Shown in pieces: positions 2,750-5,610 of a DNA stretch of 64,000 nucleotides. Every line of letters begins with the position of its first letter. Positions within the stretch are counted from its first letter, which is position 1. The notes beneath the pieces were generated by a model. The model was not told where the DNA came from. It ran no database searches and worked only from the letters and a program-made list of their open reading frames with translations. This stretch comes from Candidatus Gastranaerophilales bacterium (GTDB lineage: Bacteria; Cyanobacteriota; Vampirovibrionia; Gastranaerophilales; Gastranaerophilaceae), in the NCBI GenBank assembly GCA_944324865.1, contig CALUXW010000003.1, positions 1-64,000 on the forward strand, given 5' to 3'. The position numbers and the translations under genes are program-made.

Positions 2750-3073
2750 TTATCTGCTATAAGCCATTTGAATATTTGAATCGATTGAAGAATTAACGCT
2801 TTGTATTTCACTTTCAATCATTTTAAGTTGAATTTGATACCTTTGTGCCTGTTCTTCAAGTCTTTGCTCAACAACTTTTAAGCGTTCCTGTCGTTTTTGC
2901 AATGCTTTTGCCTCGGCTGATTCAGGATCCAAATCCGTACCTAAAGTTTCAAGTTCACCTGTTGAAGTTGTAAGTTGCAAACGAGAAGAATTAATCAGCA
3001 TGAGTTTATATTCGAGATTTAACCTCATACTGTTTAATTGAATTAATCTGATTGTTGAAACAATTAAGCCCAT
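2750..3073 (-). CDS. Unrecognised 107-residue helical protein sharing a module with the 341-residue protein upstream
   Basis: No family recognised. The first 35 residues align without gaps to the start of the protein at 4420-5445, with identity at positions M1, G2, S6, R9, L13, N19, E21, Y22, N28, R31 and L34. Residues 50-100 are a charged, Q/E-rich predicted coiled coil (KRQERLKVVEQRLEEQAQ). There is no signal peptide or membrane segment. The start lies 1 nt after the stop of the 89-residue gene upstream on the same strand, so the two are probably translationally coupled. I infer a small partner or assembly subunit of the 341-residue protein. Its function is unknown. Confidence 0.8.
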   Translation of the reverse strand: MGLIVSTIRLIQLNSMRLNLEYKLMLINSSRLQLTTSTGELETLGTDLDPESAEAKALQKRQERLKVVEQRLEEQAQRYQIQLKMIESEIQSVNSSIDSNIQMAYSR

Positions 3074-3074
3074 T

Positions 3075-3344
3075 TTATCTCATTTCGTTAAATTTATTTC
3101 CCCTCAGGAAAGTATGTTCATTATTTTGTGCAATAAGTTTCTCCATTTGATTAAGTTTATAGAGTTGATAATTCAACCTATATTTTATCATTTTTCTTTT
3201 TTTGTTAATTGAGAAGAAGCCTTTTAGCATTGAAACAAATTCTTTGGAGAACAATTTAAACGGATTTTTTCTAATTAAAAAGCTTTTTGAAAATCCAAGA
3301 AAATTTTTCATCCTTTTTAAATTTATTTGAATACTTTGTTGCAC
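3075..3344 (-). CDS. Unrecognised basic 89-residue protein
   Basis: Very lysine-rich and amphipathic, with a helical C-terminal half (YRLNYQLYKLNQMEKLIAQ) and short hydrophobic stretches, but no clear signal peptide. The start codon is GTG, supported by GGAG 7 nt upstream. Immediately downstream on the same strand is the 107-residue coiled-coil gene (1-nt gap), so both belong to one transcript. The basic character could suit binding to a membrane or an acidic partner, but no domain is recognisable. Confidence 0.65.
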   Translation of the reverse strand: MQQSIQINLKRMKNFLGFSKSFLIRKNPFKLFSKEFVSMLKGFFSINKKRKMIKYRLNYQLYKLNQMEKLIAQNNEHTFLRGNKFNEMR

Positions 3345-3359
3345 GAGCTTACTCCATTG

Positions 3360-3375
3360 TTAGGGGTAACCCTAA
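3360..3375. repeat. Short inverted repeat upstream of the 89-residue gene
   Basis: TTAGGG GTAA CCCTAA, a perfect 6-bp dyad ending 16 nt before the GTG start of the minus-strand gene at 3344. It could be an operator or a leader hairpin close to the ribosome site. Confidence 0.4.
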
Positions 3376-3523
3376 ACTAATAAAAACATTACCTGAAATA
3401 AAATTGCCAGAGTAATTTTGAAATATATTTTCATAAAATTCTCAAAATGCAATCTATATCTATATTTAATAACGACATAGAATACTTAAAACTTTATTTT
3501 TAAAAAGAAAATTTTACAAAATT

Positions 3524-4345
3524 TTACAAATCTTGGGCAAGCTTTTGATCTGATTCAATATCGTTTTTAAGAGTTTTTCTTACAATATCAGCTTGAGTAT
3601 CAAGCATTTTGCAAACTGTTTCTATATTTTTAACTCTATCCGATAAAATTACATCAGCATTACTTGTAATTCTGCCAGTAACATTTTGATAGGCACTTAC
3701 TGCAGCATTTCCTGTACCTTGCATCAAATTACCTGCAACAATTGCACCAAGACCCCACTCACCCATATAAGGCGACATAGCCTGCAATAAACCACCCCAG
3801 CCGGATATCATGCCTGCAAGTGGAAGTACAATATTTTGACCAAAACTAAACCCACCTGATGCAGTCCCCAGAGCAGCACTTGCAGTATTCATTGCAGCAA
3901 CACCTGCAGAACTCACAGCATAACCTGTAGCAAGACCTGCTGCACCTCCAGTAGGAGAACCTTCAGAACCAAAACCCAATGTAATTCCTGCTGCACCAGA
4001 TGGAAATCCGGGATATGAACCAAGATCTCCTATTCCAAAGGCAGATGTGGCGCCATCATAAGAGGAAGTAGAACCTGTAATTGGCGACCAATAAGAAGTT
4101 CCGGGAATATTCATCATATTACTTCCACCCATAACTGGCATAAATATGCTTGGTGAAAACATGCTTGCCAACTGCCACAAAAAACCACCGGCAGTACCAA
4201 AGCCACTACCCGACGATGCTGAACTTGAAACAGTTAAATCTCTCAATCTGTCATACGTTTCGTATAATTCAGCCTTTGCAATGGAACTGGCAGAACCGTA
4301 CTTATTTGCAATTGTTAGCGAATGCATATTTTTGTAAGATACCAT
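3524..4345 (-). CDS. Unrecognised Gly/Ala/Ser-rich 273-residue protein
   Basis: The start ATG is preceded by GAGGG at about 8 nt. Residues 1-40 form a short helical lead (KYGSASSIAKAELYETYDRL). Residues 45-225 are a low-complexity, hydrophobic Gly/Ala/Ser/Met region, and the last 45 residues are a charged helix (DRVKNIETVCKMLDTQADI). There is no signal peptide. The arrangement of polar helix, glycine-rich hydrophobic middle and polar helix is seen in some translocator-like or membrane-inserting exported proteins, but that is only analogy. It lies between two gene groups on the same strand that share an N-terminal module. Confidence 0.7.
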   Translation of the reverse strand: MVSYKNMHSLTIANKYGSASSIAKAELYETYDRLRDLTVSSSASSGSGFGTAGGFLWQLASMFSPSIFMPVMGGSNMMNIPGTSYWSPITGSTSSYDGATSAFGIGDLGSYPGFPSGAAGITLGFGSEGSPTGGAAGLATGYAVSSAGVAAMNTASAALGTASGGFSFGQNIVLPLAGMISGWGGLLQAMSPYMGEWGLGAIVAGNLMQGTGNAAVSAYQNVTGRITSNADVILSDRVKNIETVCKMLDTQADIVRKTLKNDIESDQKLAQDL

Positions 4346-4374
4346 AAAACTAACCCTCGTGTACTTTTTTATTT

Positions 4375-4406
4375 TTGCACCATATCAATAATATGACATG
4401 GTGCAA
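4375..4406. repeat. Inverted repeat in the 4345-4420 spacer
   Basis: TTGCACCAT (4375-4383) pairs perfectly with ATGGTGCAA (4398-4406), and an inner CATAT/ATATG dyad is also present. On the minus strand it follows the stop of the 341-residue gene and precedes the 273-residue gene. No U tract follows in that direction, so it may be a regulatory hairpin or 3' stabiliser rather than a simple terminator. Confidence 0.55.
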
Positions 4407-4419
4407 ATTACCGATTTTA

Positions 4420-5445
4420 TTATGCGAACGTCTTAAATGTAGATTCAACGTTCTTTTGTATAACCTCTTTAACTGCATCCATTTCGGTTTTAAGAGCTTC
4501 TTGTTCAGTGTCAAGTTGTTTTAACCTTAATTCAAGAGTTCTGTCTTGTTGTTGGATAATTTCAGTTCTTGCGTTAATATCTTGGATTGCTCTTTCATAT
4601 ACCATTTTTTGATATTCATAATCCTTCATTGCAGCTTCATAGCCTTCAGTATCATCTACTTGAGTTAAATCAAGTTCAAATGTTTTTCCTGCAAGTTTTT
4701 GACTCAAGCTTTCATTATCAACATTTGTAATAGTAACAGATTCAAACCTACCATCAGATGTTGCTTGGAAAGATGCTGTTGCATTACTTTTCTTTTTAAC
4801 TGTTGCATCTTGTGCAAAGTATTGAGTTAAGCCACCTGTGTACATTTCTGCAGGGTCACTGGGCAAGGTTGCATTATTAATATCATAAGAAGATATATAA
4901 TAAGTTCTTTCATCAGTTTGTCCTTTATTTAATGTGTATTTATAATATGTATCTTCTTCCGGGCGTCTTGTAGAATCACTACCTATAATTGCAGCATTGA
5001 TAATTTCAATATTACCCTTATCTATACCAGTTGTATCAGCAGGTTCAATTTCATATTCAGTGCCATTAAGATAAATTTTTGTCGGAGTTTTATCATTGAA
5101 CTCCATAGGAGTACCTTGAGTAATAGGAACTGAAGAATAACCTTTCTTCTCTGTTTCAGAATATTCTATAACAATATTGTACGAACCAGATGTAGAACCT
5201 GCAGCAGTATCAAATTTTGTTATGGAAAAATCTTCGCCCATTGAATCAAAGACATAACGGGTGTTATAATAATCAGTTGCACTCGGCGGAGTTGGTACTT
5301 GCAATTCAAGCATTTGGTTAAACAAACCAGCACTTTCATTTGAAAGAACAGTTCTTTGTTGGTTAACCTGTTGACCTTCATATTCAACGTTAGTTTTTCG
5401 TGCCGTAAGACCTAAAAATCTTGCTTGGCTTGCTGCCATTCCCAT
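4420..5445 (-). CDS. Unrecognised 341-residue helix-beta-coiled-coil protein (possible filament subunit)
   Basis: No family that I can name with certainty. Three parts are visible: an N-terminal helical module (residues 1-50, with RFLGLTARKTNVEYEGQQ), a beta-rich middle (about 60-255) with alternating polar and hydrophobic strands, and a C-terminal coiled coil (about 262-335, with LELRLKQLDTEQEAL) ending FKTFA. There is no signal peptide or membrane segment. Helical ends around a variable beta domain are the plan of flagellins, hook-associated proteins and some type III secretion filaments; the resemblance is architectural only. GGAGG lies 11 nt before the ATG. The N-terminal module recurs in the 107-residue protein at 2750-3073. 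Confidence 0.8.
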   Translation of the reverse strand: MGMAASQARFLGLTARKTNVEYEGQQVNQQRTVLSNESAGLFNQMLELQVPTPPSATDYYNTRYVFDSMGEDFSITKFDTAAGSTSGSYNIVIEYSETEKKGYSSVPITQGTPMEFNDKTPTKIYLNGTEYEIEPADTTGIDKGNIEIINAAIIGSDSTRRPEEDTYYKYTLNKGQTDERTYYISSYDINNATLPSDPAEMYTGGLTQYFAQDATVKKKSNATASFQATSDGRFESVTITNVDNESLSQKLAGKTFELDLTQVDDTEGYEAAMKDYEYQKMVYERAIQDINARTEIIQQQDRTLELRLKQLDTEQEALKTEMDAVKEVIQKNVESTFKTFA

Positions 5446-5610
5446 TGTTTTCTATGCCTCCATTGTTCTTATGTGAATGATATCGACATTAGAATATTTA
5501 AACTTTAATTTTTTAAAGACATTGTTACATTTTGTAAACATAAAGGTAAAAATCTCAGTATAAACACACATAATGTATTTAATATTTTTTATAAAAAAGT
5601 CAAAAAGGAG

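Follow-up and report, generated by a model that had tools for sequence, protein, structure and literature searches.

A large protein family with conserved termini and its association with a second flagellar-type export apparatus in the Gastranaerophilales

The window analysed here comprises the first 64,000 nucleotides of contig CALUXW010000003.1 (assembly GCA_944324865.1) from a Candidatus Gastranaerophilales bacterium, and carries a minus-strand cluster of four genes whose products are termed P341, P273, P89 and P107. Two of these, P341 and P107, belong to a protein family that accompanies a second flagellar-type export apparatus, a type III secretion system (T3SS) termed T3SS-2. The four open reading frames (ORFs) have the positions, strand, lengths and order stated in a first-pass annotation made from the letters of the DNA alone, and are listed with two promoter sites in Table 1. 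The gene order P341-P273-P89-P107 is found again in many other Gastranaerophilales genomes, some with tandem P341 copies, and the cluster is also kept in the distant bacterial family f7 (genome G034, locus L144). Searches of Pfam and NCBIfam with the four proteins returned nothing but sub-threshold coiled-coil matches, and a sequence search of the PDB, P273 included, gave no credible match.

Table 1. Genes and promoter sites of the cluster, in window coordinates
Feature	Position	Strand	Description
P341	4420..5445	-	341 aa; long family member; N module residues 1-48, beta-rich variable centre, C module residues ~266-341
P273	3524..4345	-	273 aa; Gly/Ala/Ser-rich (108/273 residues G/A/S); conserved second cluster gene
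P89	3075..3344	-	89 aa; basic (20 K+R, 4 D+E); conserved third cluster gene
P107	2750..3073	-	107 aa; insert-free family member; N and C modules, short linker
Sigma-28-type promoter TAAAGTTT-n12-GTCGATAT	5480..5507	-	34 nt upstream of P341 start codon
Sigma-28-type promoter TAAAGTTT-n12-GTCGTTAT	3469..3496	-	124 nt before P89; P89-P107 unit

P341 and P107 represent, respectively, the long and the insert-free form within one family of paralogues, built from an N-terminal module, a hypervariable centre and a C-terminal module. The ungapped alignment of their first 35 residues, to which the first-pass annotation had drawn attention, contains 11 identities, and its BLOSUM62 score was never reached in 100,000 shuffles. 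Full-length family profiles of P107 and P341 gave an N-terminal match with an E value of 2.6e-8. In profile-profile comparisons of the modules alone, N matched N over about 40 residues (E 4e-10 to 7e-10) and C matched C over about 45 residues (E 1.3e-8 to 3e-8). Comparisons of N with C, and of both modules with profiles of flagellin, rod and hook proteins, FliE and FliJ, the last serving as a coiled-coil control, gave E values of at least 0.036 and probabilities below 2%. Coiled-coil background is excluded as the source of the module matches, because the flagellin, rod, FliE and FliJ profiles fail in the same comparison. Since N matches N and C matches C, in the same order in both proteins, P107 belongs to the P341 family as a member without an insert. 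The annotation's N-terminal module is therefore real, and its proposal of a structural protein with a short partner lacking the central domain holds in so far as P107 carries both modules and a short linker; however, the C-terminal ends are homologous too, and the family is not confined to this cluster. Both proteins begin with an MGxxxSxxRxxxL helix, which does not look like a signal peptide.

In a scan of the ORFs of the fetched loci, both modules were found in 145 unique ORFs, and in every one the N module came first; the inserts measured 8-650 residues and the total lengths 107-773. The start consensus is MGxAASQARFLxLTARKxNxEYxxQQINQxR and the end consensus is LELRLKQLDTEQxALxTEMxAVxKVIxKNxExTFKTF, with conservation of the termini running to the last residues. 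Besides P107, three long members are encoded in the window's own genome, nine members are present in the relative G020 (99% complete, non-flagellated), and the family was detected in 39 of the 39 relatives of the order that were searched. There is no name for the family in Pfam or NCBIfam; it is large, undescribed so far and, like the four-gene cluster, conserved across the order Gastranaerophilales. Cys accounts for 0.36% of residues in family members, compared with 1.27% in the remaining proteins encoded at these loci, and Thr, Gln and Tyr are enriched. Identically scoring pairs of members lie 17-19 kb apart in G069 (contig C2), G088 (C2), G118 (C3) and L116/L117, which suggests recent duplication of a larger block. 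Distant members were also encoded on eight contigs (L128-L135) in a scan of IMG/VR, and these contigs may represent either host DNA binned as viral or copies carried by phages.

Promoters of the sigma-28 type stand much more frequently before family genes than before others. There are exactly two TAAAGTTT-n10..14-GTCGWTAT sites in the window, against 0.01 expected, and both precede this cluster. Of 38 homologous loci, 17 have a site before P89 at a comparable distance. In E. coli, the sigma-28 consensus reads TAAAGTTT-n11-GCCGATAA (PMC2859248), and a part of the family genes carries promoters of this type at the distance expected of a sigma-28 regulon, albeit with spacing that is mostly one base longer. 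The strict motif at -40 to -85 was present at 39 of 118 non-redundant family genes and at 8 of 1732 other ORFs, one of the eight (L164) being in fact a member of the family that the screen had overlooked; the Fisher p value of 7e-42 treats the genomes as more independent than their relatedness allows. In G020, four family genes and the P89-P107 unit are preceded by strict sites. Sites of the same type were also seen just upstream of four further G020 genes, C11:163821-168227 (1468 aa), C11:184961-185464 (167 aa), C11:2640-3551 (303 aa) and C4:31258-31695 (145 aa), which are candidate members of a T3SS-2 regulon.

Every examined genome of the order carries T3SS-2, and FlhA and the family are both present in 39/39. 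In a PF00771 search, most genomes had two full FlhA proteins and a third, soluble FlhA-C protein, with only the second full FlhA kept in six non-flagellated f1 genomes and in G036. In the tested genomes there was exactly one strong FlhA in those without flagellin and two in the flagellated ones; similarly, of nine genomes tested, those without flagellin had one strong FlhB and one T3SS ATPase and the rest had two of each. The two FlhA proteins of the window's genome share 39% identity. The T3SS-2 operon of G034 encodes, in order, a 307-aa protein, FlgF, FlgG, FlgB, FlgC, an SLT transglycosylase, FliE, FliF, a 187-aa protein, a 319-aa protein (G2), FliH, FlhA and FliI; FliP, FliQ and FliR are grouped at another place, and FliJ, a FliK-like protein and a short FlgE are encoded adjacent to each other, away from the main operon. 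The gene next after flhB2 encodes a sigma factor, with FliA/WhiG as its best NCBIfam match (E 5e-21 to 2e-23, below the curated cut-off). The third FlhA-like protein, of 481 aa, is exemplified by L045:5699-7144 on the plus strand (genome G000, contig C28), with a C-terminal part that matches only FHIPEP 321-656, the cytoplasmic domain; counterparts of ~480-510 aa occur in most relatives, and the protein is possibly a substrate-docking platform without a gate. The position usually taken by fliG, between fliF2 and fliH2, is occupied by the gene of a ~315-aa protein (L142:13066-14025, L043:8598-9542) that gave no Pfam or NCBIfam match.

In G020 the apparatus comprises FlgBCEFG, FliEFHIJPQR, the FliK-like protein, FlhAB and the FliA/WhiG-like sigma factor. 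As identified by Pfam/NCBIfam or phmmer, it thus shares with the flagellar hook-basal body a complete export gate, rod and hook. It differs in that a phmmer search of G020, which left out FliM and FliD, detected no FlgA, FlgH, FlgI, FlgK, FlgL, FliG, FliN or flagellin, so that the motor FliG/FliN, the L/P rings, the hook-filament junction and the filament protein of a functional flagellum were not found, and in that T3SS-2 coexists with a separate flagellar set in relatives. Non-flagellar T3SS, including the injectisome and the Myxococcus type (PMC3459982), also have an export gate without motility parts. Nevertheless, T3SS-2 keeps FliE, FlgB and FlgC, which are flagellum-specific markers in Abby and Rocha 2012 (PMC3459982), and no secretin dedicated to it was identified; each non-flagellated genome has one secretin, which may be of pilus or T3SS type. 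In Lysobacter enzymogenes (PMC9927559), flagellar genes are reportedly kept without flagella; in contrast to that case, a second copy here stands beside the flagellar set of related genomes and has its own candidate substrate family.

Non-flagellated genomes of this lineage have been interpreted as having an incomplete flagellum by Di Rienzi et al. 2013 (PMC3787301) and Soo et al. 2014 (PMC4040986), and the shared flagellum-related genes in PMC3787301 (flgG twice, flgC, fliF, fliH, flhA, fliI and flgE on one contig, fliPQR, flhB) look like the T3SS-2 set. These incomplete gene sets would suit a decaying flagellum, with the family as leftover coding sequences, yet such decay is highly improbable given that flagellated relatives hold both sets side by side, that the second FlhA is intact, with 71-80% identity from one family to another, and that the genes of the family have open reading frames and are both amplified and conserved. 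In an open-access library, subscription papers being outside its scope, no account of a second system was found.

The first-pass annotation had proposed that co-occurrence with secretion or flagellar genes be examined, and here the outcome was positive. Among 146 genomes of the class, the family is present in 70 and an orthologue of the second FlhA (threshold at least 1000 bits) in 68, all of them among the 70, and 76 genomes have neither. The two genomes with the family but without this FlhA are one that is 56% complete and G122. A family member lies within 15 kb of flhA2 in 30 of 51 f1 genomes (read by hand from two tables). The entire four-gene cluster is located about 4 to 7 kb upstream of fliE2 (fliE2-flhA2) in G020, L114 and L122. 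Within the order the association is uninformative, because the family and T3SS-2 are both near-universal there, and this raises the alternative that the family belongs to the flagellum, or to no export system, and that its co-occurrence with T3SS-2 merely reflects shared ancestry in the clade. This alternative is unlikely, as the family is well represented in genomes that lack flagellin or the first FlhA and is absent from the sampled genomes of families f10-f12, in which only other, more distant FlhA proteins (655-775 bits) were present; linkage to T3SS-2 genes and the promoter class also speak against it.

The predicted structure of P341 resembles flagellar axial proteins in the order of its elements. 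An AlphaFold2 model based on 24 sequences (mean predicted local distance difference test score, pLDDT, 83; predicted template modelling score 0.47) has a helix-beta-helix arrangement, with a helix at residues 2-47, strands within 60-264 and a helix at 266-340. In a Foldseek search of the PDB with this model, the first four matches were flagellar filament assembly chains (E 1.6e-4, probability 0.63). Flagellin (FliC) and other axial proteins similarly have a hypervariable, beta-rich centre enclosed between conserved N- and C-terminal helices (PMC8306008), and the family shares with them this design, a sigma-28-class promoter, low Cys content and multiple paralogues. The family differs from flagellin in being present in genomes without flagellin, in being tied to another FlhA and in having no detectable sequence homology with it: there was no Pfam match to Flagellin_N or Flagellin_C in P341 or in the 25 commonest families of 24 members, and hhalign comparison of the modules with local flagellins gave E values of at least 0.12.

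Taken together, these data point, with a probability of roughly 60%, to a family of flagellin-like design that T3SS-2 exports as late substrates of the sigma-28 class, its members probably being subunits of a filament or of the surface. Under this interpretation, expression of the family would be turned on by the FliA/WhiG-like sigma factor, whose gene adjoins flhB2, after the FlgB/C/F/G rod and FlgE2 hook have been built, and the subunits would go through the export gate of FlhA2, FlhB2 and FliPQR2, with FliH2, FliI2 and FliJ2. The conserved helices at both ends may then form core contacts, in the manner of flagellin D0/D1, with the variable centre facing outward, and P107, without a centre, could be a core-only subunit or an assembly partner. 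The more specific proposal, that a second hook-basal-body machine, present alongside flagella or in their place, assembles the P341 family into a non-motile extracellular filament, with P107 as core subunit and several paralogues per genome displaying different outer domains, is put forward tentatively; in it, polymerisation, surface display and passage through the outer membrane are putative.

Several points weigh against interpretation of the family as such export substrates. The Foldseek matches of P341 have template modelling scores of about 0.15, and therefore indicate a like order of elements, with a common fold not demonstrated. Homology of the modules to flagellin, rod and hook proteins, FliE or FliJ was rejected, none being detectable by sequence. 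Across the G020 genome as a whole, the promoter motif shows no enrichment (30 sites vs 45 on the reversed sequence), being enriched only at family genes, and the strict motif is absent at four flagellin genes of two flagellated relatives. Neither an L/P ring nor a dedicated secretin, through which exported proteins would cross the outer membrane, was found for T3SS-2. In addition, co-occurrence tracks clades, and may therefore stand for few independent events. The hypervariability of the centre, from 8 to 650 aa even among paralogues within one genome, and the sigma-28-type sites preceding unrelated large G020 proteins that are possible cargo, would also fit a family of secreted effectors, adhesins or other T3SS-2 cargo, with the N module as export signal, the C module as chaperone-binding coiled coil and the centre as the active part. 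This is a less probable competitor; on general grounds, termini conserved to the last residues and Cys depletion suit self-assembling axial proteins better.

Should non-flagellated gut Melainabacteria, so far described as having incomplete flagella, instead operate an intact second export machine of the flagellar type, with its own sigma-28-type regulon and a large, hypervariable family of substrates, a surface organelle or secretion system would have gone unrecognised in a lineage common in animal guts. It would also be an instance in nature of a flagellum that was duplicated and put to another use. Should the filament proposal also be correct, common gut bacteria would possess a separate class of type III-exported surface filament. 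The analysis also supplies marker genes, together with predictions that can be put to the test for hundreds of genes as yet uncharacterised.

With respect to the remainder of the cluster, P273 is best explained as a partner co-transcribed with P341, and no promoter site of its own was found in the window. It was considered as a further P341-family member, but this was not supported (profile comparison probability 7.9%), and its AlphaFold2 model was unusable (pLDDT 39). The four genes are flanked by a leucyl-tRNA synthetase-like gene, assigned by eye, on one side and by another plus-strand gene on the other. A conserved protein of ~210 aa is encoded convergently beside the cluster at L039:10233-10868 (minus strand), and has this placement in L078, L082, L092, L097, L111, L114 and L122.
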